A DNA stretch of 64,000 nt from contig CAIZHQ010000006.1 in the NCBI GenBank assembly GCA_903932865.1, forward strand, positions 62,001 through 126,000, given 5' to 3'. Both the position numbers and the translations under genes were made by a program. Origin of the DNA: an uncultured Burkholderiales bacterium (GTDB lineage: Bacteria > Pseudomonadota > Gammaproteobacteria > Burkholderiales > Burkholderiaceae_C). The notes under the pieces were generated by a model. It was not told the origin of the DNA. It saw only the letters and a list, made by a program, of their open reading frames with translations, and ran no database searches. This document shows, piece after piece, positions 3,997-48,381 of this stretch (the stretch's first letter is position 1; the number at the start of each line of letters is the position of its first letter).

Positions 3997-4228
3997 CTGG
4001 AGGGCTCGGTTTCTTTCGGCGGATGTTTCAAACTCTACAAAGTGGGCCATTGTGAGACTGGAGCGTCACTTTTTGCTTCATGGTTATCCCGTGGTTTGTC
4101 TCGTTGGTGTCTACAAATCGCAAGCCTTTCCCATTTCAGCAGCCGCCATTGGGCTAAGCCAAATCAGTGCTGCTTGCAAGGTTATGGCGCCAACTGAGTA
4201 GCGGCAAAGAATTCAGACCCATACCGGC

Positions 4229-5761
4229 TCAAGTCCGACGTGATTCCAGCCCTTGCGCATCGATGGCGCGCAGTTCAGTTTTCAGCACCTTGCCGTAATT
4301 GTTCTTGGGCAAGGCTGGGACAAAGTGGTAATGCTTGGGCCGCTTGAATCGCGCCACTTGGTCCAGGCAGTGCCCGTCCAAATCGTTCGCACTCACGGGT
4401 TGGCGGCACACCACAAACGCCACCACCACCTCGCCCCACTCGGGGTCGGGGCGGCCGATCACCGAGACCTCGGCCACCTGCGGGTGCGTGAGCAAGGCTT
4501 CTTCGACTTCGCGGGGGTAAATGTTGGTGCCACCGCTGATCACCATGTCCTTCGATCGGTCCAGCAAAGTCAGGTAACCATCGGCATCCAGCCGCCCCAC
4601 ATCGCCGGTTTGCAACCAGCCGCCGCGAATGGCTTTGGCCGTGGCCTCAGGGTCGCGCCAATAGCCCGCCATGACCAGCTCGCTGCGCACGCAAATTTCA
4701 CCCACTTCGCCCACTGGCAAGCTCGTACCCGACTCGTCTCCAATCTTCAGCTCGACCATGGCCTGTGCATGCCCGACCGAAGCCAGCCGTTCCCGGTAAC
4801 GCGGGTGGGTGGTGTCCAGCACATCGCTCTTGGGCAGCACGCTGATGGTCATCGGGCATTCGCCTTGGCCATAAATCTGCGCAAAGTGCGGGCCGATGAC
4901 CTGCAAGGCCTCTTCGATGTCAGCCAGGTACATGGGGCCGCCGCCATAGACGATGGTGGCCAGTCCCTGCGGCCGCTCGGGCAAGTGGCGTGCCGCATCC
5001 ACCAGCCGCCGCACCATGGTGGGCGCTGCAAAAAACGAGGCCCGCTGCCAGTGCTCAGCCAGCAACAAGGCTTCGTGCGGGTCAAAGCCGTCCGAGCGCG
5101 GCACCACATTCAGCCCGGCGTTCAGCACATAAGGCAAGTGGTACATGCCGCCACCGTGCGACAGCGGCGCGGGGTGCAGCATGGTGTCGCCACGTTCCAC
5201 CGATTGCACCGAGCCGAAATATGCCAACGTGCAGCCGCGCAATTGGCGGGCACACAGCACCACGCCCTTGGGCCTGCCGGTGGTGCCGCTGGTGTAGAAC
5301 AACCAAGCCGGGTCGTCGTCCTCGCGGGCTTGCAGTGGCAGTTCTGGGCCTTCGACTTGCAACATGAATGAGCTGTCAGCCTTAACGGCTGTAACAACGC
5401 CCAAGTCGCGCAGTGCTTGGGTGAAAGTGTGTTCCCGTTCGCTGTCGCAAAAAGCGATGCGCGCCTCGCTGTGCTGAGCGATCCATGCCGCTTCGCGTTC
5501 GTGCAGCTTGGCATTGACGGGCACCGCCACCGCACCAGCCCACCAGATGCCCCACATGAGGGGCAAATATTCGGGCGTGTTGTACAGGAACAGCATCACG
5601 CGGTCGCCGGGCTGCACACCTTGGGCGTGCAGCCAGCTGGCCGTGCGGGCAGCGCGGTGGGCGAATTCTGCGTAATCGCACCAGACCTCGGTGCCGTGCG
5701 CGATGGCCGCTTGCTGCGGGTAACGTTCGGCGGTGCGCGCCAACCAAAGAGCAATGTTCAT
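4229..5761 (-). CDS. AMP-dependent acyl-CoA synthetase/ligase (ANL superfamily)
   Basis: 510 residues from ATG 5759-5761 (MNIALWLARTAERYPQQAAI). It activates a carboxylic acid to acyl-AMP and then acyl-CoA. Motifs: P-loop-like YTSGTTGRPKG (residues 156-166), YGQGE aromatic/ATP motif (297-301), LQTGDVGRLDADGY (383-396), the hinge DRSKDMVISGGTNIYPREVE (401-420) and the C-terminal catalytic lysine in NYGKVLK (Lys491). Length fits long- or medium-chain fatty acid or aryl-CoA ligases. Next downstream genes on the same strand are an SDR oxidoreductase upstream (6578-5796; 34-base gap) and a desaturase, suggesting a lipid or acyl-CoA context. The exact substrate cannot be told from these motifs. Confidence 0.87.
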   Translation of the reverse strand: MNIALWLARTAERYPQQAAIAHGTEVWCDYAEFAHRAARTASWLHAQGVQPGDRVMLFLYNTPEYLPLMWGIWWAGAVAVPVNAKLHEREAAWIAQHSEARIAFCDSEREHTFTQALRDLGVVTAVKADSSFMLQVEGPELPLQAREDDDPAWLFYTSGTTGRPKGVVLCARQLRGCTLAYFGSVQSVERGDTMLHPAPLSHGGGMYHLPYVLNAGLNVVPRSDGFDPHEALLLAEHWQRASFFAAPTMVRRLVDAARHLPERPQGLATIVYGGGPMYLADIEEALQVIGPHFAQIYGQGECPMTISVLPKSDVLDTTHPRYRERLASVGHAQAMVELKIGDESGTSLPVGEVGEICVRSELVMAGYWRDPEATAKAIRGGWLQTGDVGRLDADGYLTLLDRSKDMVISGGTNIYPREVEEALLTHPQVAEVSVIGRPDPEWGEVVVAFVVCRQPVSANDLDGHCLDQVARFKRPKHYHFVPALPKNNYGKVLKTELRAIDAQGLESRRT

Positions 5762-5795
5762 GTGAATAGGGCAAGTATGCGATGCGATCCGTTTA

Positions 5796-6578
5796 CTAGA
5801 CCAGGACCATGCCGCCATCGAGCAAGATGGACTGCCCTGTCATGCCGCGTGACTCGTGAGAGCCAAGGTAAACCGCCAGTGCGGCAATCTCGTCTGGGTT
5901 CAGCACACGCCCCAGCGGCACCCGCGCCAGTGCGGCCTTGACCATGTCGTCACCACTCATGCCCGAACTTTGGGCCACCTGGGCTTTCAGCGTTTCCACC
6001 ATGTCGGTCTGCACAAAGCCGGGGCAGATCGCATTCACCGTGACCGCGTGCGGGCTGGCTTCGAGCGCGACGCAGCGCGTCAAGCCCACCACCGCGTGCT
6101 TGCTGACGTTGTAGGCCGACTGGTTGCGCGAGCCCCATTTGCCAGCCGTGGAGGCGATGTTGACGATGCGTCCGTGTCGGCGCGCTTGCATGCCCGGCAG
6201 GCACGCCTGCATGAAGTGCAGCACGCCAAACAGGTTCACATCGAGCATGTCCTGAAAATCTTGCGGCGCGTAGTCGAGGAAAGGCTTGGCCCGGTACACC
6301 CCCGCGTTGTTGACCAGCACGTCGACGCGCCCAAAGCGCTTTTCGACTTGCGCGACGGCCGCAAAGCAGGCGTCACGCTCGGTCACGTTCAGGCCCAAAG
6401 TCATGATGCGCTCGTCAGGCAAGCCCAGGCTGTCCTTGACCTCCTGCAGGCGAGATGTGTCGGTGGCGATCAGGCAAAGGCTGGCCCCTTCAGCGGCATA
6501 GGCCTCGGCGATCGCGCGGCCGATGCCGCGGCTGGCGCCGGTCACGATGGCCACTTGTTGGTCGAGTCGGGGTGCCAT
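5796..6578 (-). CDS. Short-chain dehydrogenase/reductase (SDR), FabG/3-hydroxybutyrate dehydrogenase-like
   Basis: 260 residues from the second of two close ATGs (6576-6578; MAPRLDQQVAIVTGASRGIG), chosen because AGGA lies 6 bases upstream; the first ATG (6584) abuts that sequence. Classical SDR signatures are present: TGASRGIG cofactor loop (13-20), NNAG (90-93), catalytic Ser143, Tyr156 and Lys160 (YNVSK), and the C-terminal GQSILLDGGM. It probably oxidises or reduces a hydroxyacyl substrate with NAD(P). It lies 34 bases ahead of the acyl-CoA ligase gene and 22 bases after the desaturase gene, so the three are probably co-transcribed. FabG-like, 3-hydroxybutyrate or hydroxyacyl-CoA dehydrogenase activity are all possible. 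Confidence 0.88.
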   Translation of the reverse strand: MAPRLDQQVAIVTGASRGIGRAIAEAYAAEGASLCLIATDTSRLQEVKDSLGLPDERIMTLGLNVTERDACFAAVAQVEKRFGRVDVLVNNAGVYRAKPFLDYAPQDFQDMLDVNLFGVLHFMQACLPGMQARRHGRIVNIASTAGKWGSRNQSAYNVSKHAVVGLTRCVALEASPHAVTVNAICPGFVQTDMVETLKAQVAQSSGMSGDDMVKAALARVPLGRVLNPDEIAALAVYLGSHESRGMTGQSILLDGGMVLV

Positions 6579-6600
6579 TTTCATTCCTGGGTTTGAGGGG

Positions 6601-7578
6601 TCAAATAAGCGAAGCGCGTTTGCGCTGATCGCCTGGCTTGCCGTGATCGGGGTCGTCGTGCGGATTGGACACCGCTTTGCGCAGCACGGCCAGATAACCC
6701 TGGGCCAGTTCCATGCGCGGGCCAAAGCCTTGCTCAACCAGCATGCGGTGGGCGGCGGGCAACTTCCAGCAGGGCGTGAACACAAACAGGTGATGTTCCA
6801 GGTGGTAATTCACCCAGTAAGGGGCCAGCACCATGCGCATGCCCCAGTTCGTCAGCGTGGTGCGGGTGTTGCGCAAGCGGTCATCGTTGTTGCCCACCAC
6901 CGCGTGTTCGGCGATGTTGCGGATTCGGCTGATCACTTGATACCAGGTGAGCAAGGGCAGCAGCCACAAGGCAAAGAAAACCCACCACACATCCGCAGCG
7001 GCGGTGATCGCAAAGATGGCCAGGTTGGTGAGGAAGAAGTATTTTTCTGCAGCGATCAGGTTCTTCAGACGTTGCCAGCGGCTGGGGCTGTCGCCCATTT
7101 CCAGGCGGAAAGATTCAACGCGCCGTTGGTAACCCGTGATGCCCAGAATGTCGCGCCGCATCTTGCGCCAAAAGCTGCTTGGGCTGATGGGAAACGGGGC
7201 CGACAAGACCAGATCAGGGTCTTCGGCCTGTTGGGTGTGGCGGTGGTGGCTCAGGTGGTAGGGGCGGTACAGCGTGAGGCTTGCGCCCACAGGCCAACCG
7301 CACAAAAACGCGCCCAGCGTGTCATTGAGCCGGGTGCTCTTGAACAGGGCGCGGTGCGCTGCATCGTGCATCAAAATCGCCAGGCCCAGTTGCCGCCCGC
7401 CAATGATGACCACGGCAACGAGGAAGCTCAAGGGGTTGGGCCAGGCGATGAACAACGCCATAGCCAATGCGATCACGCCCCAAGCGTGCAACACCAGATA
7501 AGCACCCATCCAGTCCGAGCGTTCGCGCAAAAATGCGTCTTGCTCGGGGCTGAGGCTGGGCTGGGTGTCGGTGGTCAT
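6601..7578 (-). CDS. Fatty acid desaturase family membrane protein
   Basis: 325 residues from ATG 7576-7578; a TTG 18 bases earlier is in frame but unlikely. The three His clusters that bind the di-iron centre are visible: HDAAH (71-75), HLSHHRH (108-114) and HLEHH (259-263), with NIAEH (221-225) adding a histidine. Hydrophobic segments at about 30-68 and 182-212 fit an integral membrane desaturase/hydroxylase. The HLEHH-containing group includes acyl-lipid and carotenoid-modifying enzymes; the substrate is unknown. It is the first gene of a probable three-gene unit with the SDR and acyl-CoA ligase. Its upstream region (7579-7727) contains a palindrome listed separately. Confidence 0.88.
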   Translation of the reverse strand: MTTDTQPSLSPEQDAFLRERSDWMGAYLVLHAWGVIALAMALFIAWPNPLSFLVAVVIIGGRQLGLAILMHDAAHRALFKSTRLNDTLGAFLCGWPVGASLTLYRPYHLSHHRHTQQAEDPDLVLSAPFPISPSSFWRKMRRDILGITGYQRRVESFRLEMGDSPSRWQRLKNLIAAEKYFFLTNLAIFAITAAADVWWVFFALWLLPLLTWYQVISRIRNIAEHAVVGNNDDRLRNTRTTLTNWGMRMVLAPYWVNYHLEHHLFVFTPCWKLPAAHRMLVEQGFGPRMELAQGYLAVLRKAVSNPHDDPDHGKPGDQRKRASLI

Positions 7579-7631
7579 GGCATGGGGAGTCGGCAAAAGG
7601 ACTATCTTGTGCCTTTGGCCTCTGCCTGATA

Positions 7632-7645
7632 GTCACAGGGGTGAC
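7632..7645. promoter_or_regulatory. Palindrome GTCAC-N4-GTGAC upstream of the desaturase gene
   Basis: The sequence GTCACAGGGGTGAC is a perfect 5-base inverted repeat with a 4-base spacer, 54 bases upstream of the desaturase ATG in the only noncoding space before this operon. Such a site could be an operator for a TetR- or Fur-like regulator, but none is encoded next to it. Confidence 0.3.
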
Positions 7646-7727
7646 CTTTTCGGGACTTTCCCTGATCGCCTGCGTTTTGTGTGTGTCAAGTCGGGTGTGA
7701 CAAATTTGCGCAGGGCTTGGCTTTGGC

Positions 7728-9140
7728 TCACTTGCCGATGCAAAAACTCGAAAAGATCACGCCCAGCAAATCGTCGGCGCTGAACTCGCCCGTGATCTCG
7801 TTGAGTGCGTTTTGGCCCAAGCGCAGCTCTTCGGCCAGCAGGTCCAGGTTTTGCGCTTGCGCGGCCAAATGGGCATTGGCGATTTCAAGATGCTCGCGTA
7901 CGCGATGCAGGGCCTGCACATGGCGCTCGCGGGCGATGAACAGTCCTTCGCTGGCTTGCTGCCACCCCGCTTGCTGCAGCAATTGTTGGCGCAGGGCTTG
8001 CAAGCCTTCGCCCGTCAGTGCAGACAGGGTCAAGCCCGTGCGCTCGCCGGGCGCACGGGCAGCGTCGGCTTTGTTCCACACATCGATCACCGCCACGCTC
8101 GCGGGCAGGCGACTTTTGAGGGCACTGGCGATGTCGGCGTCGGCGCTGTCGTGATCGGCTTGACCTGCACGCGTCAGGTCGTGCAAAAACAGCACCGCAT
8201 CGGCGTTGTCGATCTGACCCCAAGCGCGGGCAATGCCAATTTGCTCCACCTCGTCCACGCCTTCGCCTTCGCGCAGGCCGGCGGTGTCGATCACATGCAG
8301 CGGCACGCCTTCGATCTGGATGGTTTGCTGCACCACATCGCGCGTGGTGCCCGCAATGGGCGTAACAATCGCCAGCTCGGCCCCGGCCAGCGCGTTGAGC
8401 AGCGAACTCTTGCCCGCATTGGGTTGGCCTGCAATCACCACCTTGATGCCTTCACGCAGCAAGGCGCCTTGGCGGGCTTTGCCCAGCACCGTCATCAAGG
8501 CCGCTTGCAGACGGTTCAGCTGGCCTTGTGCATCGGCCTTTTGCAAAAAGTCGATCTCTTCTTCCGGGAAGTCCAGCGTGGCCTCCACCAACATGCGCAG
8601 GTGGATCAGCGCATCGCGCAGTACATGGATCTCTTTGGAAAAATCACCCGCCAAAGAACGGCTGGCGCTGCGTGCCGCAGCTTCGGTGCTGGCGTCGATC
8701 AGGTCGGCAATCGCCTCGGCCTGTGCCAAGTCGATCTTGTCGTTCAGAAATGCCCGCTCAGAAAACTCGCCCGGTTGCGCCACCCGCAAACCGGCCAAAC
8801 GCGGCTGGCCAGTGGTCGGGTCGTTCTCGGCCGCCGCTTGCAGGCAGCGCGCCACCAACAGCTGCAGCACCACCGGCCCGCCATGCGCTTGCAACTCCAG
8901 CACGTCTTCGCCAGTGAACGAGTGCGGTGCCACAAAGTGCAGCGCCAAACCATGATCGATTGGGCTGCCATCGGCATCGGCAAAAGGCAGGTAAGTGGCC
9001 TCTCGGGCTTTCAGCCGTCGCCCGCACAACGCCTCAATCAGCGAAGAGAGCTGGCGGCCCGAGACCCGCACAATGCCCACCGCACCGCGACCAGGTGCGG
9101 TGGCGATGGCGACAATGGGTTCTTGTTGACGGGCGAGCAT
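7728..9140 (-). CDS. mnmE: tRNA uridine-5-carboxymethylaminomethyl modification GTPase MnmE (TrmE)
   Basis: 470 residues, normal length. With MnmG it makes the cmnm5 modification on U34 of several tRNAs. The order is N-terminal folate-binding domain (1-120), helical domain, and an inserted G domain with GQPNAGKSS (238-246), PIAGTTRD (261-268), DTAG (285-288) and WNKAD, ending in the family-defining C-terminal FCIGK whose Cys is essential. It is the last gene of the conserved rpmH-rnpA-yidD-yidC-mnmE block next to the origin; a terminator lies between yidC and mnmE, so it may have its own promoter. Confidence 0.97.
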
Positions 9141-41195: not shown

Positions 41196-42065
41196 TCAGA
41201 ACGCCTGATCGGCCGTGAAGGTGATGCGGTGCAGTTTTCGATGCTGCGGATAAAAATCGGCCACAGCGTAGTGCTGAGTCGAACGGTTGTCCCACACGGC
41301 CAGCGTATCGGGCTGCCAGCGCCAGCGCGCCTGCACTTCGGGTGCGGTGATCAACGCAAACAGCTGGGCCAAAAGTGCATCACTTTGCGCGCGCGGCAGG
41401 CCATGGATGTGGGTGGTGAAGGTGGGGTTCACATACAAAATCTTTTTGCCCGTGACGGGATGCACGCGCACCACGGGGTGCGTCACGGGCGGGTATTTGG
41501 CGCGAGCGGCTTGCAGCTGCTCGCCGCTGGCGTCTTGGCGCAACAGGTATTCGGTCCAGCCGGTGACCTCCCAGGTGTGCATGGCACTCAGGGTTTCCAG
41601 ATAGGCTTTGAAGTCGGCAGGCAAGGCCTCGTAGGCGATGGTCATGCTGGCCCAAACGGTATCGCCACCACTGGCCGGAATGACTTGCGCATACAGGCTG
41701 GTGCCAATGGGCGGGTAGGCTTGCCACGTGATGTCGGAATGCCAGTTGTTGTTGGCAGCCGGGCGCTCGGCGGTGCTTTCCACAATTTCAATCTCGGGCT
41801 GGCTCTCCACTCGGGGAAAGAAGGCTTTGACTTCGTTGACTTGCCCAAAACTGCGGGTGAAGGCCACCTGCTGAGCAGGGGTGAGCACTTGATCCCGAAA
41901 AAAGATCACCTCGTACCGGGCCAAAGCGGCCTTCAGCTCGGTTTGTGCCAGATCACTCAGAGGTTGCGACAAGTCCAAACCATGGAGCGTGGCCCCGATG
42001 TTGGGGGTGTAGGGTTCGGCTACAAAGCTTTGGTACGCGGCTGAGTTTTGGATCGGAGAGGTCAT
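41196..42065 (-). CDS. TauD/TfdA-family 2-oxoglutarate-dependent dioxygenase
   Basis: 289 residues from ATG 42063-42065. The non-haem iron facial triad is visible as WHSD (His/Asp near residue 110) and the distal His in NRSTQHYAVADF; the 2-oxoglutarate-binding Arg is in RKLHRITF at the end. N-terminal PYTPNIGATLHGLDLSQPLS and FFRDQVLTPAQQVAFTRSFG match taurine dioxygenase and alkylsulfatase AtsK. It would release sulfite or sulfate from an organosulfur compound, in keeping with the sulfate uptake genes downstream. It starts only 22 bases after the thioredoxin-like gene, so read-through from that operon is possible. Confidence 0.87.
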   Translation of the reverse strand: MTSPIQNSAAYQSFVAEPYTPNIGATLHGLDLSQPLSDLAQTELKAALARYEVIFFRDQVLTPAQQVAFTRSFGQVNEVKAFFPRVESQPEIEIVESTAERPAANNNWHSDITWQAYPPIGTSLYAQVIPASGGDTVWASMTIAYEALPADFKAYLETLSAMHTWEVTGWTEYLLRQDASGEQLQAARAKYPPVTHPVVRVHPVTGKKILYVNPTFTTHIHGLPRAQSDALLAQLFALITAPEVQARWRWQPDTLAVWDNRSTQHYAVADFYPQHRKLHRITFTADQAF

Positions 42066-42087
42066 CTTTCGATCATGCCAGAGCACT

Positions 42088-42615
42088 TCAAGCAGGTGTC
42101 AACCAGCGCTTGAGCATCACGGGCGTCGGTGGCCCAATCACCCTTTGGGTCTGGCCTTTGGCGTCCACCAGGACCACATAAGGCGTGACGTTGGGCCAAG
42201 CCGGATCGACCGCCTGGCGTATGGCAGGTTCAAAACCATCAAAGGCGTACATCTGCGTCATGCCCTTGAAGTGCGAGGCATGGCGCAAGGCCTGCGGGCC
42301 CGCCACGTCCATCATGACGGCATTGAGTTCGGGTTTGTCTTTGCGCTGCTGCACGGCTTTATGCAGCACCTCAAATGCAGCCGGGCAAGTGCTGCAGTAA
42401 GAGGTGGTGAACAAATACGCCGCAGGGCGAGGGCCGTGCTGCAAAGCATGCACCCAGGTTTTTTCGTCGAATGGCAACACCGTGCGCTGGGTGGAGACCT
42501 TGGCTTCGTGGCGAGGGTGTGCGTGTTGCTGTGCTTGTGCCCAAACCGTCGAAGCACCCAGACCGAGTGCAGCGCTACAAATGGCGAGTGCCGTGAATTT
42601 AAAAACGGAGTTCAT
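42088..42615 (-). CDS. Exported thioredoxin-like protein with CxxC motif, in the copper cluster
   Basis: 175 residues from ATG 42613-42615, which lies inside the end of the propeller gene (17-base overlap). Signal peptide MNSVFKFTALAICSAALGLG then ASTVWAQAQ. The mature protein starts with a His-rich patch (QQHAHPRHE) and contains YLFTTSYCSTCPAAFEVLHK (Cys74, Cys77), a thioredoxin-fold active site, and TPYVVLVDAKGQ with the cis-Pro type position. Likely periplasmic thiol oxidoreductase or Cu chaperone. The closest known family is thioredoxin/TlpA-like; no exact match is recognised. Confidence 0.75.
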   Translation of the reverse strand: MNSVFKFTALAICSAALGLGASTVWAQAQQHAHPRHEAKVSTQRTVLPFDEKTWVHALQHGPRPAAYLFTTSYCSTCPAAFEVLHKAVQQRKDKPELNAVMMDVAGPQALRHASHFKGMTQMYAFDGFEPAIRQAVDPAWPNVTPYVVLVDAKGQTQRVIGPPTPVMLKRWLTPA

Positions 42616-43834
42616 GGACTTGCGTCTCCTGTGTGTTGCGCCACACCACCACCATGCGCGAGCCACTTTGGGCCAAGCGGGGGTGGTCGTTGTAGCCCGT
42701 GGCTTGGCCCAAGGTTTTGAGCGCGAAATTTTGCCCGCCATCGGTCGACAGCCAGGCCTTGAGAGAAGTCACAGCGCCTTCGCTGCTGCGCCAGACCACC
42801 GCCACGTTTTGGCCATCGGCCAGCACGTCGGCGTGCTCGGCCCGCGCATCGGGCAACACGCGCAGGGTCTCAGGCAAGGGCTCGCCTTGCGCATTCAAGC
42901 GGGCATAACGCACAGCAGCTTGGTCTTCGCCGTTCACTTTGCGGATGCCAAACCAGACCGTGTGGTAACCCGAAGTGCTGGCATTGAGTGCCAAACCTGG
43001 GCCGTGGTGCGGGCAAGCATTGATCTGCCAACCATCGTAAGTGCTGCGGGTGATGCGGTTGGCTGGGGCGCCCACGCTGGCAAAAGCATGGTCTCGCGTG
43101 CTGCTGTCGAACACATGCCGCCAGGTGGCTTGCAGCTGACCTTGCGGGTTGCGGGCCAGGCCAATGCGGCAGCATTCGCACGAATGATCGGCCAGCTTGG
43201 TGTCGGGGCCAAAGGTCTGACCGCCGTCCTTGGACTCGTTGCGGTAAATCGCGGCACCCGCATATTTTTGTGCCGAGCCTTTGGGTGGCTGATCGCGCTT
43301 ATCCACCCACAGCGTGTGCAGCACACCTTGCGCGTCAAAGGCCACCGAATCAAAACGGTGGGTGATTTCCTGCCGATCCTGGTGCACCGTGAAGGGCGCA
43401 CCGAATGTTTGCCCACCATCGCTGCTGCGCAGCATGCGGATGAAACCCGTGTAAGGCTTGGCCAAGGGCATGGTGTAACTGATCACCGCCCAGCCATTCG
43501 GACCAAATGCTATTTTTGGGCGGCTTTCGCCATCGGCCGCAATCGGGTCGGCCCCGGTGTTCAGAATGCGGGCTTCACTCCACTGCAAAGCAGCGCCCAA
43601 AGGCGTGCTTTGCACAAAGAGTTGCGCTTGCGCATTCAAACCCACCACCCACAAACGGCCGTCGGGTGCAATGGCTGCGCCTGTGGCCAGTTGCGGGCGC
43701 AGGTGGCGGTGCTGTGAAGTCGCAGCAGGTTTGCTGGCTTCTTTGACAGCGTCTTGCGCCCCAGCCTGCGGCACCACACACAGCCCGACCATCACCAGAC
43801 CCAACACGGCACACCAACGGTTAAAGAGGTTCAT
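42599..43834 (-). CDS. Exported Asp-box (sialidase-like) beta-propeller protein with Cys/His clusters
   Basis: 411 residues from ATG 43832-43834, with a signal peptide ending VVPQAGAQ. At least three Asp boxes (SSDGGQTFG about 137-145, SKDGGQTFG about 201-209, STDGGQNF about 363-370) mark a six-bladed BNR/sialidase fold, but no sialidase FRIP or arginine-triad context is evident. Two unusual motifs, HSCECCR (217-223) and NACPHHGP (272-279), are candidate metal ligands. It lies 89 bases after the TonB receptor gene and overlaps the thioredoxin-like gene, inside a copper-type cluster. A copper-binding periplasmic partner of the receptor is inferred; enzymatic function is unknown. Confidence 0.75.
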   Translation of the reverse strand: MNLFNRWCAVLGLVMVGLCVVPQAGAQDAVKEASKPAATSQHRHLRPQLATGAAIAPDGRLWVVGLNAQAQLFVQSTPLGAALQWSEARILNTGADPIAADGESRPKIAFGPNGWAVISYTMPLAKPYTGFIRMLRSSDGGQTFGAPFTVHQDRQEITHRFDSVAFDAQGVLHTLWVDKRDQPPKGSAQKYAGAAIYRNESKDGGQTFGPDTKLADHSCECCRIGLARNPQGQLQATWRHVFDSSTRDHAFASVGAPANRITRSTYDGWQINACPHHGPGLALNASTSGYHTVWFGIRKVNGEDQAAVRYARLNAQGEPLPETLRVLPDARAEHADVLADGQNVAVVWRSSEGAVTSLKAWLSTDGGQNFALKTLGQATGYNDHPRLAQSGSRMVVVWRNTQETQVHELRF

Positions 43835-43923
43835 GGGCTTCTGTTCCAAAAAGAGGAGATTGAATGAAAGGCTGGCGAAATCATGGTTACTTTTCAACAA
43901 ATCATCGCCAGCCAAGCTTCACG

Positions 43924-46065
43924 TCAGCGTTGACCAAACGACTTGGTCAAACCCACCATCATGCTGCGCGGCGCACCTGCGGCATAGGTGTTTTGCGTGT
44001 TGGGTGTGTAAGCGCCACTTTTGTAGCTGCTGGACGCATTGTCCGAGTACAGCTTGTCGGTCAGGTTACGCACTTGGCCCCAAACCTCCCAGCCATCTTG
44101 CAACTTGTGGCTGGCGGTCAGGTTGAGCAGGGTGTGGCCTGCATAACGCACCGTGTTGGCGTTGTTCATCCAGTAGCTGCCTTGCTTGACCAAGCCCAAA
44201 GCCACGCGCGAAGCCGGTGTGAACTTCCAGCCGACTTGGGCGGTGATGGTGTGGTTAGGGGCCTGTGGCATGTCTTTGCCCGAGTAGTCTTCGATGGCGC
44301 CCACTTTGTCGCTCACGCGGTAGCTCACAAACGTGTGCTCGGCCCACGTCGCGCCCACGCGCCAATCCCACTCCCCTCCCCATCCTCGCAACTCTTGGTT
44401 CAGGCTCAGCTCCAGGCCTCGGCTGCGGGTGTTGCCCGCGTTCTTGTTGAAGCTGTTGCCGACGTCAGAGGTGTAAGACACGATGGTGTCTTTGCCGCTC
44501 AGTTGGTAGAGCGCTGAATCGAGGCGAATGCCCGAGGCCAACAAGGCACGCCAGCCCACTTCCACGTTGTCGTAGGTAGCTGAGTTCAACTCTGGAATGG
44601 CGGTCTTGCCGTACAGCTGGCTGACTTCGGGCGGTGTGAAGCCCATGCTCAGGTTGCTGTAGAGGCTGCTGGTGGGGCTGAGAGCGAAGGTCGCGCCCAG
44701 CTTGGGGCTGAACTTGGCGAAGCTGCGCACCTCGTTGGCGGCGCCGTAGTTGGCCCCGGGTGTCAGGTTATTTTTGAAGTCGTAGCGAATGCGGTCATAA
44801 CGGCCACCTGCCACCACACGGATTTTCTCGCTCGGGCTGAACTCCAGTTGTGCAAACAGCGCATCGTTGGCAATGCCCGCGCCGTAGTTGCGCACACCAC
44901 TGGGGTTGGCCACGCTGTTCAAGGTGTAGCTGACATAACGACCGGTGGGTACATCGCGCACCACGGCCAAGTTGTCCGACGCATAGTCGTTCTGGCTGCG
45001 GTCAATGTAGACGCCTGTGACCAGGCGGGCACGCAGCCAGTCGAGCTTTTGCTCGTGCTTCACGTCCACGCCCAGCGACTCAACGTGGTTGTTGTTCAAG
45101 GTGCCCTTGCAGGTGGCACCCGAGCAACCCGTGATGGTGTAGTTGGGCAATTGGCCGTGGTCGTTGTTGCGGGCAAACAGCGTCACCGTCGTCAAGCCAC
45201 CTTGCGTGGTTTCGCCTTCCCAAGCCAGGTTGGCGCGGGTGGTTTTGTCTTTGCGCCAGGTGAAGGTGTTGATGCTTTTGCCGGGGTTGCTGCGGAAGTC
45301 GTTTTCAAACAAGCTGCCGGGGGTGTCCGAGTCCAGATTCGTGTGCACCAGCGAGGCACGCAACCATGACTTGTCGCTCAGGTTGTAGTCGCCACGCAGC
45401 GTGAAGGAATCCTTCTTGCCGCCGCTGTACTGCTGCCAGTTGTGGGTATCGCGTTGTGAGCTGTAATGCGAAAACCGCAGACCCAAATCACCCCAGGTGT
45501 TGCTCGCACCCGAATCCACACGGTTGAAGCCGTCGGTGTTGTCGTGGCGAATACCCAGATAACCAGTGGGTGTGCGTGAAGGTCGTTGCGTCAAGAAGTT
45601 GACCGCGCCACCCACCGCATTGCTGCCATACAGCGACGAGGCCGCGCCTTTGACCACCTCAACCCCACCCGAGCCGTTCATGTTGTTTTCGTTCAGGGCG
45701 TTGTGGTTGAACACGCCCAAGGGACGGATCGGGATGCCGTCCTCCAAATACTGGTAGACCGCGTTGGTGCTGATGGGCTGGCGAATGGCCATGCTGTGCT
45801 GCTCATTGCCCAGATCGTTCCAGTGCACGCCGGGAATGCGGTTGATGATCTCGCCTACCGACTTGGGCTTGTCGGCGTCCCATTGGGCGCGGCTGACGGC
45901 CCCAATGGACACGGGGGTTTCGGACAATGGCGTTTCAGAGCGTGAGCCCGACACCACGATGGTGTCCAGCGCAGGCGCGGTTTGGGCCACCGCAGCGGCA
46001 CTCAAACTGGCCAAGAGGCCGAACACGGCCACAGACAAAGGAGAAAGAGAGAGGGAATTTTTCAT
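43924..46065 (-). CDS. TonB-dependent outer-membrane receptor, probably for copper
   Basis: 713 residues with a signal peptide ending AAAVAQ. A TonB-box-like DTIVVSGSRS (34-43) is followed by the plug domain (SVGEIINRIPGVHWNDLGNE, GVEVVKGAASSLYGSNAVGG) and a 22-stranded barrel ending in TKSFGQR. It imports a ligand across the outer membrane using TonB-ExbBD. The barrel contains one Cys pair (ITGCSGATCKG). Copper as ligand is inferred from the flanking DUF2946 and PCu(A)C genes and resembles the arrangement of NosA/OprC/BfrG-type receptors; sequence alone would also allow a siderophore. Confidence 0.88.
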   Translation of the reverse strand: MKNSLSLSPLSVAVFGLLASLSAAAVAQTAPALDTIVVSGSRSETPLSETPVSIGAVSRAQWDADKPKSVGEIINRIPGVHWNDLGNEQHSMAIRQPISTNAVYQYLEDGIPIRPLGVFNHNALNENNMNGSGGVEVVKGAASSLYGSNAVGGAVNFLTQRPSRTPTGYLGIRHDNTDGFNRVDSGASNTWGDLGLRFSHYSSQRDTHNWQQYSGGKKDSFTLRGDYNLSDKSWLRASLVHTNLDSDTPGSLFENDFRSNPGKSINTFTWRKDKTTRANLAWEGETTQGGLTTVTLFARNNDHGQLPNYTITGCSGATCKGTLNNNHVESLGVDVKHEQKLDWLRARLVTGVYIDRSQNDYASDNLAVVRDVPTGRYVSYTLNSVANPSGVRNYGAGIANDALFAQLEFSPSEKIRVVAGGRYDRIRYDFKNNLTPGANYGAANEVRSFAKFSPKLGATFALSPTSSLYSNLSMGFTPPEVSQLYGKTAIPELNSATYDNVEVGWRALLASGIRLDSALYQLSGKDTIVSYTSDVGNSFNKNAGNTRSRGLELSLNQELRGWGGEWDWRVGATWAEHTFVSYRVSDKVGAIEDYSGKDMPQAPNHTITAQVGWKFTPASRVALGLVKQGSYWMNNANTVRYAGHTLLNLTASHKLQDGWEVWGQVRNLTDKLYSDNASSSYKSGAYTPNTQNTYAAGAPRSMMVGLTKSFGQR

Positions 46066-46162
46066 GACAAGTTTTCAATCGATCGGTCGCCATCGGCCGT
46101 TCAGGCCAAGGGCAACAACAGACACCAAGCACCCAGAGGTGTTCAGCGTGCGGGGGTGTGGA

Positions 46163-46537
46163 TCAATTGAAAACAGGTGGCCCGCGAGAGGGCAAAGGCG
46201 GGGCCGTGCGTGCGATCAGCACGGCCTCTGGCAGACGCTGCACGATGTGCGAGCGGGCATCGGGCACATGGGCCAGATCGGCCACCGTGGGCGGCGGCAG
46301 GGTGGGCGTCGCGTGGGCGCAAAGTGGGCAGTCCATGCTGGCGGGCAATGCGCTGTCATTGCCCTCGCCCTGCGCCACCAATTTCATGACGCCCATGCTG
46401 GAGCAGACCACTTCCACGGTTTTGGGCTGCAGGGTTGAGGCCAAAACCGACACACCCACAAACAGCACATACCAAGCCAGCACAAAGCGAGCCAGGCGGC
46501 GCAGCAGTGTCATGATGGGGGGCATATTCGTGTCCAT
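46163..46537 (-). CDS. DUF2946 protein 2 (CruR-like, directly upstream of the TonB receptor)
   Basis: 124 residues from ATG 46535-46537; ATG 46525 is an alternative. N-terminal hydrophobic helix (RFVLAWYVLFVGVSVLAS), then VVCSSMGVMKLV (Cys45) and SMDCPLCAHA (Cys70, Cys73), the pattern of DUF2946. In Bordetella a DUF2946 ORF (CruR) is reported as a copper-responsive upstream ORF controlling a PCu(A)C/TonB receptor operon; that precedent is recalled, not checked here. It begins 30 bases after the chaperone stop and ends 97 bases before the receptor ATG. Confidence 0.82.
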   Translation of the reverse strand: MDTNMPPIMTLLRRLARFVLAWYVLFVGVSVLASTLQPKTVEVVCSSMGVMKLVAQGEGNDSALPASMDCPLCAHATPTLPPPTVADLAHVPDARSHIVQRLPEAVLIARTAPPLPSRGPPVFN

Positions 46538-46567
46538 GGGCAGGTCAGTGGCTAACGCTCAGACCGA

Positions 46568-47047
46568 TCAATGCTTGTGCATCTGGCCTGCGCCATGGTT
46601 CATGGCCGGTGCTGCGGCGGTGCGGGCGGGCACTTTCAGCTCCACCAACTGTCGCTTACCGTCTTTCCCTTCCACCACCAGCGTCACGGGCACGGTATCA
46701 CCGTCTTTGACTTGGCCTTTCAGGTCCATCAGCATGACGTGGTAGCCACCGGGTTTGAGGTCCACCGCTTTGCCAGCGGGCAAGGCCAAGCTGGGCACTG
46801 CACGCATTTTCATGACACCGCCGTCCATGCTCATTTCATGCACCTCGACCACACTCGCCACTGGCGACTGGGCCGAGATCAGTTTGGCGTCTTGGGCCGA
46901 TTGCAGTTGCATGAAGGCACCGGTGGCCTTTTGCTGCGCGACGGTGGCGCGCACCCAGGCGTCTTTCACGGTGACTTGGGCCTGCGCCGTCAGGGACACG
47001 GTCATGGCCAGAAAAAAGGCAGCGACAGACAAAGCGGGACGGAACAT
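46568..47047 (-). CDS. Periplasmic copper chaperone, PCu(A)C family
   Basis: 159 residues with a signal peptide ending SLTAQAQ. The family copper motif H-X10-M-X21-H-X-M is exact: His70, Met81, His103, Met105. A Met/His-rich tail (MNHGAGQMHKH) offers a second metal site. PCu(A)C proteins bind Cu(I) in the periplasm and deliver it, for example, to cytochrome oxidase assembly. It lies between two DUF2946 genes, 141 bases after the first. This is the best-supported copper gene of the cluster. Confidence 0.93.
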   Translation of the reverse strand: MFRPALSVAAFFLAMTVSLTAQAQVTVKDAWVRATVAQQKATGAFMQLQSAQDAKLISAQSPVASVVEVHEMSMDGGVMKMRAVPSLALPAGKAVDLKPGGYHVMLMDLKGQVKDGDTVPVTLVVEGKDGKRQLVELKVPARTAAAPAMNHGAGQMHKH

Positions 47048-47188
47048 GGATCACTCCTGGTGGTTATCGAACAGATGAAGAGGCACGGATTGTGCGAAAG
47101 GCACACCCCTCGGCGCAGGGTGCACAGACACAGGTGGATGCCGAAACCGACTCAGCCCCAACGCGTCAGCGCAAACAGGGGCGGTGTT

Positions 47189-47566
47189 TCAGGCCAAAAA
47201 GATGGGGGGTGCGCGGGCTTGCCAGGGTTGCCCCAGCAAACTGGCCAGCCGTGCCGCCGGCAAGGGCTGCAAAACGTGAGACAAGTTGCCCGTTACCAGG
47301 GAAGCCCACACGTCGGCCGCAGGGGGCGCGATCAAGGGCAGGCAGGCGGGGCAGTCCAGCGCGGTGTGCAATGCGCCACCACTCCCCTCATCGCCAGCGG
47401 CATCAGATTGCACCAGCTTCACGCCACCGATGGCGGTGCAAACCAGATGCACGGCGTCAGGCTTGACCAGCGGCGAAGCCACCGCCGCCCCGACAAACAA
47501 CACCAACCACACCAACAAAAAGCGGTGGAGGTGATGGGCGTTGCGCAGGGTTTGCAGGCTGAACAT
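47189..47566 (-). CDS. DUF2946 protein 1 (CruR-like, first gene of the copper cluster)
   Basis: 125 residues from ATG 47564-47566. Same plan as the second copy: an N-terminal hydrophobic helix (RFLLVWLVLFVGAAVA), VHLVCTAIGGVKLV (Cys43) and ALDCPACLPL (Cys72, Cys75), then a Pro/Ala/Leu-rich tail. It precedes the PCu(A)C gene by 141 noncoding bases, a gap in which I see no gene and which could hold a Rho-utilisation leader. It is probably the first gene of the six-gene unit. Function as a copper-sensing uORF product is inferred. Confidence 0.82.
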   Translation of the reverse strand: MFSLQTLRNAHHLHRFLLVWLVLFVGAAVASPLVKPDAVHLVCTAIGGVKLVQSDAAGDEGSGGALHTALDCPACLPLIAPPAADVWASLVTGNLSHVLQPLPAARLASLLGQPWQARAPPIFLA

Positions 47567-47730
47567 GGCGTGAATTATGGCACCTAAGGCTCAGGCACCC
47601 CAACACAGGGGCTCCGATAGAGATGAGTTTGGGCGGGCGGTCTTGACCCCCGTCTCACAGGCATCTTGGTGACGCACGGGTGCAGCAGCTTCGGCTAATC
47701 TGTGATTTTCAAACCCAACCGGAGTTCCCC

Positions 47731-48381
47731 ATGATCACACTCTGCGGCTTTGCGGCCAGCAATTACCACAACAAAGTCAAATTGGCCTTGCTCGAAAAAG
47801 GCGTGCCCTTTGAAGAAGAGCTGGCTTGGGTGGGGGCCACCGACGCTGCCGCCAGCCCGTTGGGCAAAGTGCCTTACCTCAAGACACCCGATGGCGCCAT
47901 GTGCGAGTCGGCTGTCATGCTGGAATACATTGAGCAAAAGTACCCGCAAAACCCCTTGATCCCTGCTGACCCTTTTGCCGCTGCCAAAGTACGCGAATTG
48001 GCGCTGTTTTTGGACCTGCACCTTGAGTTGGTGGCGCGCAACCTCTACCCCGAAGCATTCTTTGGCGGCAAGGTGAGCGACTCGGTGAAAGAAAAAACCG
48101 CTGCGCAACTGGAAAAAAACGTGGCTGCGTTTGCCCAACTGGCCAAGTTCTCGCCCTTCATTGCGGGCGACAGCCTGACGCTGGCCGACTGCGCAGCCGT
48201 CACGCACCTGCCCCTGATTTCGGGTGCCACCAAGCTGGTTTACGGTAAAGACTTTTTGGCCGACCTGCCAGCCCGCGATTACCTCAAGATGATGGGTGAG
48301 CGTCCCCACATGCAAAAAGTCAACGCCGACCGCAAAGCCAACATGGAATTGATGATGTCACGCATGAAAGCCAAAAGCTGA
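47731..48381 (+). CDS. Glutathione S-transferase family protein
   Basis: 216 residues from ATG 47731, with GGAG 6 bases upstream; the longer frame to 47680 is rejected. Thioredoxin-like N-terminal domain: MITLCGFAASNYHNKVKLAL, then GKVPYLKTPDGAMCESAVML with the cis-Pro (VPYL) and ESAV glutathione-binding loop. All-helical C-terminal domain with FIAGDSLTLADCAAVTHLPL, the N-capping box. Cytosolic detoxification or thiol-transfer role; substrate unknown. It runs away from the copper cluster, 164 bases from its first gene. Confidence 0.9.
   Translation: MITLCGFAASNYHNKVKLALLEKGVPFEEELAWVGATDAAASPLGKVPYLKTPDGAMCESAVMLEYIEQKYPQNPLIPADPFAAAKVRELALFLDLHLELVARNLYPEAFFGGKVSDSVKEKTAAQLEKNVAAFAQLAKFSPFIAGDSLTLADCAAVTHLPLISGATKLVYGKDFLADLPARDYLKMMGERPHMQKVNADRKANMELMMSRMKAKS

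Follow-up and report, generated by a model that had tools for sequence, protein, structure and literature searches.

The subject of this report is a six-gene locus in a 64,000-nucleotide stretch of contig CAIZHQ010000006.1 (hereafter the window), from a freshwater bacterium of the genus Limnohabitans with a 3.77 Mb genome. The locus is probably an operon for copper uptake under copper starvation, with a single promoter ahead of its first gene and control by two CruR-type leader peptides in series, one encoded by an open reading frame (ORF), cruA, ahead of a PCu(A)C copper chaperone gene, and the other by a second ORF, cruB, ahead of a TonB-dependent receptor gene. What is new here is that the codons following the putative arrest motif RGPP of cruB pair over 14 bp with the stretch before the receptor start, and that the chaperone junction is without such pairing.

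From the ORF list and translations, six minus-strand genes run in the order DUF2946 - PCu(A)C - DUF2946 - TonB receptor - Asp-box propeller - thioredoxin-like protein. A first-pass annotation of the window had reported these six same-strand ORFs in this order, with 141 nt before pcuC, 97 nt before the receptor, an exact H-X10-M-X21-H-X-M site in the chaperone, and one Cys plus a DCPxC pair in each DUF2946 ORF, all of which are present. The observation is more than chance, the two being the sole DUF2946 matches in the genome and the order being repeated in many relatives. The features, in the direction of transcription, are as follows.

47574..47582, minus strand: extended -10 element TG-C-CATAAT, a putative promoter element 7 nt before the cruA start codon
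47189..47566, minus strand: cruA, CruR-type DUF2946 leader ORF, 125 aa; CPAC - 42 residues - RAPP - IFLA stop
47048..47188, minus strand: intergenic region 1, cruA to pcuC, 141 nt, without a significant fold
46568..47047, minus strand: pcuC, periplasmic copper chaperone PCu(A)C; H-X10-M-X21-H-X-M
46163..46537, minus strand: cruB, second CruR-type DUF2946 leader ORF, 124 aa; CPLC - 44 residues - RGPP - VFN stop
46161..46174, minus strand: hairpin 5' arm, the codons right after RGPP, starting immediately past the second Pro codon and including the cruB stop codon
46066..46162, minus strand: cruB-receptor intergenic region, 97 nt
46071..46084, minus strand: hairpin 3' arm, ending 5 nt before the receptor ATG
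43924..46065, minus strand: TonB-dependent outer-membrane receptor, 713 aa; Pfam Plug and barrel
42599..43834, minus strand: Asp-box beta-propeller with invariant CxCC and CP-x-x-G motifs
42088..42615, minus strand: thioredoxin-like protein with CSTC and a conserved TPY

The gap from pcuC to cruB is 30 nt, and the propeller and thioredoxin ORFs overlap by 17 nt (42615-42599). The first-pass annotation mentions neither this overlap nor the hairpin, nor that cruB has no promoter element in front of it.

Two CruR-type leader peptides

Judged by its motifs, each DUF2946 ORF resembles CruR, the copper-sensing leader peptide. In Bordetella, the CXXC of CruR senses copper, its RAPP arrests the ribosome, the arrest keeps Rho off and copper relieves it, CXXC and RAPP having each been shown to be necessary (PMC9426467); arrest in vitro needs RAPP, with the two Pro codons in the P and A sites, and RGPP gave the most stable arrest among the RAPP-like sequences tried (PMC12992588). 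In the window, a CPxC pair is followed near the C-terminus by RAPP in cruA and RGPP in cruB, 42 and 44 residues on, next to about 45 in the CruR pattern; these C-terminal motifs were absent from the first-pass annotation. CruB scores 30.6 bits against Pfam DUF2946 (cut-off 23.7), and cruA and cruB are the only two matches to the family at E <= 0.001 in the genome.

All 64 CruR matches in 25 Limnohabitans loci retain CXXC and RAPP or RGPP (some of the matches having been found via that motif). The 37 leaders preceding pcuC end in RAPP and the 26 preceding a receptor in RGPP; the gene after the 27th RGPP leader of this set, in L093, is unlabelled. Extended to a general rule, RAPP for chaperones and RGPP for receptors was rejected: among 177 CruRs, those before TonB-dependent receptors divide into 62 with RGPP and 15 with RAPP, and those before PCu(A)C genes into 48 with RAPP and 23 with RGPP. 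Some CruR-profile matches elsewhere are without RxPP, for example the AAPP ends in L078 and L079. Roy et al. place cruR systematically first in its operon, a position occupied by cruA and not by cruB, which is internal. Head position is an observed trend for CruR and no mechanistic requirement.

A tree built from 89 CruRs, on an alignment of 130 columns that is short for so many rows, places the leading, chaperone-facing CruRs of serial arrays, cruA included, in a clade of 13 with support 100/99, the receptor-facing CruRs, cruB included, in a clade of 15 (100/100), and those preceding a second chaperone in a clade of 6 (100/100). The serial CruRs look like inherited modules and not like fresh copies. 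That one CruR arose from the other by recent duplication inside the operon was rejected on the separate clades, short as the alignment is. In L042 (positions 4220-8891), two near-identical CruRs, each before its own receptor, stand in tandem, likely a recent leader duplication. CruRs 76-81% identical to cruB are found in L034, L035, L037 and L038 before receptors that are only ~20-24% identical to that of the window over the aligned parts; because such near-cruB leaders precede dissimilar receptors, the leader seems to be exchangeable between receptors.

A hairpin over the receptor start

The part of the message that spans the RGPP codons and the receptor start folds at z -5.1, as against z +0.52 for the cruA-pcuC junction and z -0.96 for a longer stretch there, so that a stem-loop shielding the start of the next gene is found at the cruB-receptor junction and not at the cruA-pcuC junction. 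A ribosome stalled with the Pro codons in its P and A sites would cover, from the size of its footprint, most of the 5' arm of the 14-bp stem. Over all loci, 81 receptor junctions have a mean fold z of -2.5 (50 of them below -2), and 50 chaperone junctions a mean of -0.9. Arm pairing was compared with dinucleotide shuffles at 95 of 194 junctions, the others being without a usable labelled start in the stretch: among the 30 receptor junctions of Limnohabitans it reaches p <= 0.01 in 22 (26 at 0.05), in none of the 12 Limnohabitans chaperone junctions (one at 0.05), and in none of 14 chaperone junctions outside the genus.

The pairing also shows covariation, and across genera it outdoes both shuffled and swapped controls. 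Across 23 distinct sequences, 96.9% of cells are paired (93.8 in shuffled sets, 0/500 as high; 55.6 in the best slid version), the covariation score is 0.137 against 0.081 in shuffles (0/500), and two pairs of the stem show UA/CG/UG and CG/GU/UG exchanges. Near-cruB leaders before other receptors have different arms that still pair (97.0% of cells). This set has six sequences, taken from the four loci whose leader shares 76-81% identity with cruB and from the third CruR of both L083 and L085.

A swap test, in which the start was taken as the first in-frame ATG irrespective of pairing and near-copies were removed, gave -16.3 kcal/mol for own arms against -11.4 for swapped arms over 32 receptor loci, with 0/20,000 permutations as low; for the 26 receptor loci outside Limnohabitans the values were -16.2 and -12.1 (again 0/20,000). 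No excess was seen in 13 chaperone loci (-10.9 against -10.6; 7,760/20,000). Choosing the start codon by pairing biases the test, which then gives 226/20,000 for pcuC. In L071, L072, L074 and L076 the bases at the cruR stop codon (TCCTGA) pair with the Shine-Dalgarno-like stretch of the receptor (TCAGGA).

Two other identities for the element were considered and rejected. The long hairpin is not an intrinsic terminator, as no T-run stands behind its 3' arm; a terminator scan returned 7 sites where shuffled sequence gives 7.8, and among the 7 is a weak stem of 5 bp that falls on the RGPP codons (46185-46173). Nor is it a known Rfam element, the one match being a chance match elsewhere (E 0.36).

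Promoter and transcript

An xATAAT match (5/6) lies close to the ATG in 24 of 25 leading cruRs of the Limnohabitans loci, each within TGNNATAAT and mostly ending 6 to 8 nt before the ATG; for the remaining one (L087) the automatic start assignment was wrong. A -10 element so near the ATG predicts a leaderless or nearly leaderless cruA transcript. This extended -10 element is clear in Limnohabitans only, being absent from 62 of the 93 CruRs, among the 177, that have nothing labelled upstream. Of 39 internal cruRs, four have a 5/6 match at that place (the third of L032 and the last of L083, L085 and L093), and a wider scan for the extended motif adds one more, in L038. Before the cruB of the window there is no -10 element of the cruA kind, the best match in the 80 nt upstream being 3/6. 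Because cruB starts 30 nt after pcuC without such an element, the locus probably forms one transcript with two switches in series.

An excess of C over G marks Rho sites. In the 3' end of cruR plus the intergenic region this excess averages 0.215 over 64 cruRs, against 0.104 over 37 pcuC controls.

Recurrence of the arrangement

A search for the propeller in 90 genomes of the genus found 35 positive, the window's own included; 32 of the 35 loci were annotated with locally built profiles, the remaining three being fragments only. Leaving out L084, L090, L092, L094, L098, L104 and L108 (contig end) and L091 (propeller apart from the receptor) gives 24 complete loci. The order cruR-pcuC-cruR-receptor-propeller-thioredoxin is found in 12 of these, the window included; in six (L032, L083, L085, L089, L093, L100) the CruRs number three or four, and a second chaperone gene and MbnP/MbnH-like genes lie among them; and six (L101, L102, L103, L105, L106, L107) have one CruR. 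Two to four CruRs are thus present in 18 of the 24. L083, L085 and L093 each carry four CruR-type ORFs in one co-directional cluster of ~13 kb, the last CruR with its own -10 element, the modules being chaperone; chaperone 2-MbnP-MbnH; receptor 2 (unlabelled in L093); and receptor-propeller-thioredoxin.

A named propeller set of 80 loci, Limnohabitans included, extends these observations. Two or three co-directional CruRs occur in 29 of the 80 (counted over the stretch), and the identical six-gene order is seen in seven loci without the Limnohabitans label (L177, L179, L190, L194, L207, L213, L215), with propellers 54-66% identical to that of the window. The cruR-pcuC-cruR-receptor order also appears in L039, from another Burkholderiales family, in L109 and L113, from the same family, and, in another order of the class, in L123, L124, L125 and L127, with L126 having the cruR-pcuC-cruR part; L123-L127 are, as a guess only, presumably of the Pseudomonas-like or OprC-cluster kind. 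In L110, L111, L112, L115, L116 and L118 other copper genes stand behind the second CruR. In a sample of the phylum, DUF2946 is present in 114 of 398 genomes, and at least 9 of the 114, the window's own included, have two co-directional DUF2946 matches starting <=3 kb apart (counted by eye).

The first-pass annotation had suggested that two such ORFs in one operon, each gating a different gene, would be a new arrangement: two leader ORFs do precede chaperone and receptor respectively, belong to separate clades and have different RNA at their junctions, but the arrangement is no peculiarity of the window, recurring in Limnohabitans, in other Burkholderiales and in another order.

Side observations concern the surroundings and two outlying sets of loci. 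A TauD-family dioxygenase gene lies on the same strand of the window (41196-42086), its start within ~22 nt of the thioredoxin stop; such a gene is nearby in several relatives (L032, L084, L093, L095, L097) and was not found in many others. L071, L072, L074 and L076, from another class of the phylum (probably Alphaproteobacteria), have cruR-receptor-propeller together with PCu(A)C. L162 is a Limnohabitans-type operon on a contig labelled Akkermansia muciniphila, probably a misnamed bin.

The gene products and metal specificity

PcuC is a PCu(A)C chaperone (Pfam PCuAC, 132 bits, with the full copper site), and no second PCuAC match was found in the genome. The receptor matches Pfam Plug and TonB barrel, and its nearest solved relatives are YncD/PqqU; its identification as a CrtA or OprC orthologue was rejected, YncD/PqqU outscoring CrtA. 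The first-pass annotation had named receptors with Fur boxes and without DUF2946 in homologous loci as telling against copper control, a pattern that was not seen. The whole window contains 0 matches within 3 mismatches of the 19-base Fur consensus, the best match upstream of the operon being 10/19, and a CruR lies <=3.6 kb upstream in 55 of the 64 named propeller loci with room for it. Iron control of the operon was rejected on the lack of a Fur-like site. On the plus strand of the window the best match to the same consensus is 15/19.

The propeller has Pfam BNR matches under the cut-off, and its sequence matches no PDB chain. Its structural model (pLDDT 83.9, pTM 0.83) resembles lectin, lyase and sialidase propellers and predicts an Asp-box beta-propeller fold; C-x-C-C and C-P-x-x-G are retained in 50/50 aligned members. 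Of the 398 genomes sampled across the phylum, 16 have the family, counting the window's own; in the 16 loci taken from these matches it stands beside a labelled TonB receptor 14 times (exceptions L077 and L081). The thioredoxin-like protein likewise has Pfam thioredoxin matches under the cut-off; its model (pLDDT 83.9, pTM 0.73) matches ResA/CcmG/TlpA folds, and the predicted thioredoxin fold, with CXXC and a conserved TP, suggests a TlpA/ResA-like protein. TlpA and PCu(A)C act in oxidase assembly. By analogy, the likely role of propeller and thioredoxin is periplasmic copper handling. The first-pass annotation had placed these last two genes outside the known model; they are better described as a conserved block, the thioredoxin-like gene following the propeller in 79 of 80 named loci.

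Comparison with known systems

We know of no system in which a pair of copper-type arrest peptides is coupled to two different outputs. Neither two CruRs per operon nor a start-blocking CruR hairpin is described in the portions of the DUF2946/CruR literature compared, figures and supplements aside; Fig. 7b of PMC9426467 may show such loci. The CruR-BfrG/CrtA-CrpH system of Bordetella pertussis (PMC9426467, PMC12914433, PMC13038864) shares with the window the DUF2946 leader, CXXC, C-terminal RAPP, a long intergenic region and a TonB receptor behind. It differs in having one CruR at its head, a PepSY_TM protein where the window has propeller and thioredoxin, and another receptor type; Rho-dependent attenuation has been shown for it, and a start-blocking hairpin is not described in the text compared. 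The main text of Roy et al., so far as compared, predicts stable stem-loops within the cruR message, and the words "hairpin" and "Shine" are absent from it.

A stem-loop over the next start is known from CutF-CutO of Rhodobacter capsulatus, where a DUF2946 leader peptide precedes a stem-loop that shields the Shine-Dalgarno sequence, and CruR is treated as different (PMC9973294). There, too, the differences are several: copper turns CutO on, the motif is CxxxC where cruA and cruB have CXXC, there is one leader, and the target is a multicopper oxidase. The Pseudomonas OprC cluster (PMC8610252, PMC9431628) was compared together with L123-L127, four of which share the double-CruR order described above. 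These loci differ in that the first CruR of the chaperone-receptor operon ends NPRASP and not RAPP in all five, possibly a weakened or different arrest motif, and in that the receptor-start hairpin is not significant where tested; L123 has, by reading of its sequence, a PepSY-like ORF behind the receptor. More distant parallels are the nascent-peptide or leader-ORF attenuators SecM, MifM and TnaC (named in PMC9973294) and the tandem attenuators of mgtCBR (PMC3641672), which respond to other ligands.

Proposed mechanism and alternatives

Most likely, by analogy with the two described systems, cruA attenuates the operon as in Bordetella and cruB adds a CutF-style translational gate on the receptor. 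In the scheme that we infer, including copper as the ligand, the sign of the response, the part of Rho, the substrate of the receptor and the roles of the last two proteins, ribosomes would stall at low copper on the RAPP of CruA and the RGPP of CruB. The ribosome stalled on cruA would keep Rho off, as shown for Bordetella CruR, and transcription of the operon would continue; that stalled on cruB would occupy the 5' arm of the stem, leaving the receptor start free. Copper bound at the CPxC pair would relieve both stalls. With CruA relieved, the transcript would be cut short, and with CruB relieved, the hairpin would close over the receptor start and the RNA would lie open to Rho. Because CruA acts before pcuC and CruB after it, the chaperone would pass one gate and the receptor, propeller and thioredoxin two. 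The receptor would then import a copper chelate, the propeller, with its four invariant Cys, and the TlpA/ResA-like thioredoxin would receive or reduce periplasmic copper, and PCu(A)C would deliver it to cytochrome oxidase.

Several observations weigh against this reading. CruA scores 22.9 bits against DUF2946, slightly under the cut-off (E 1.6e-4), and its CXXC-RAPP spacing is 3 residues below the 45 of Bordetella. The receptor is not close to CrtA, with a partial 53-bit match to PDB 9RVQ and higher scores for YncD/PqqU. Seven of the 50 chaperone junctions fold at z < -2, including those of L102, L103 and L106, in which pcuC comes first behind a single CruR. Of the 38 receptor junctions outside Limnohabitans, taken one at a time, just 13 are at p <= 0.05 (4 of 38 at p <= 0.01), and in L123, L125 and L127 the pairing is not significant (32 to 47 of 200 shuffles). 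Among the five covariation measures, two fall within shuffles (double-change pairs 474/500, further pair types 397/500), and the six-sequence set exceeds shuffles only in cells paired and covariation score (15/500 each), with double-changed cells at 87/500. The C-over-G signal may come in part from the Pro codons.

It is also conceivable, if rather unlikely, that the locus consists of two independent transcription units, with a promoter for cruB inside pcuC and each CruR controlling its own unit, with no series. Such a promoter may exist, and an internal cruR is preceded by a promoter-like element in L032, L038, L083, L085 and L093; against this, where cruB directly follows pcuC its frame opens 10-28 nt past the pcuC frame (12 loci), the best -10-like match for the cruB of the window stops at 3/6, and no sigma-70-like site was found in 41900-47760, though the same scan also misses the element before cruA. 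A relic without regulatory role among the two DUF2946 ORFs would surprise us more: L102, L103, L106 and L107, of the same genus, do manage with a single CruR before pcuC-receptor-propeller-thioredoxin, but the retention of CXXC and RAPP/RGPP in all 64 Limnohabitans CruRs, some of them found by that motif, and the well-supported separate clades of cruA and cruB argue against it.

The sign of the second switch could in principle be reversed, CruB being a CutF-type sensor in which copper prolongs the stall and turns the receptor on. The receptor-start hairpin does resemble the cutF-cutO stem-loop that shields the Shine-Dalgarno sequence (PMC9973294). We consider this improbable, however, as RGPP and CXXC are CruR-like (CutF having CxxxC), the neighbours are acquisition genes, and Bordetella CruR before a TonB receptor turns that receptor off with copper (PMC9426467). 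There is similarly little to recommend an operon for another metal or an iron-siderophore that is merely copper-like: among solved structures YncD/PqqU come closest to the receptor, and copper specificity is not assumed for every DUF2946 protein (PMC9973294), but PCu(A)C has its full copper site, related arrays contain MbnP/MbnH-like and second PCu(A)C modules, and no Fur-like site is seen.

Implications

Bacterial copper uptake is poorly understood, and in accounts so far CruR stands first in its operon as a switch. On the preferred reading of two leaders in series, the receptor hairpin would link two apparently conflicting models of DUF2946 action, the Rho-based one for CruR and the stem-loop one for CutF. 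The propeller with its CxCC and CP motifs, standing beside TonB receptors in Burkholderiales and in another Proteobacteria class, is a candidate new copper-handling protein. A bolder proposal, which we put forward tentatively, is that the two CruRs on a single message act together as a graded copper ruler, CruA, with RAPP and no hairpin, setting transcription of the whole operon and CruB, with RGPP and the hairpin, acting as a second, differently tuned gate on the receptor block, so that import could stop at copper levels that still allow the chaperone to be made; receptor-facing CruR leaders across Proteobacteria might then be a class whose post-RxPP codons double as a start-blocking 5' arm. 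Serial CruRs, with up to four in one co-directional cluster, are a natural experiment in the tuning and combining of nascent-peptide sensors.

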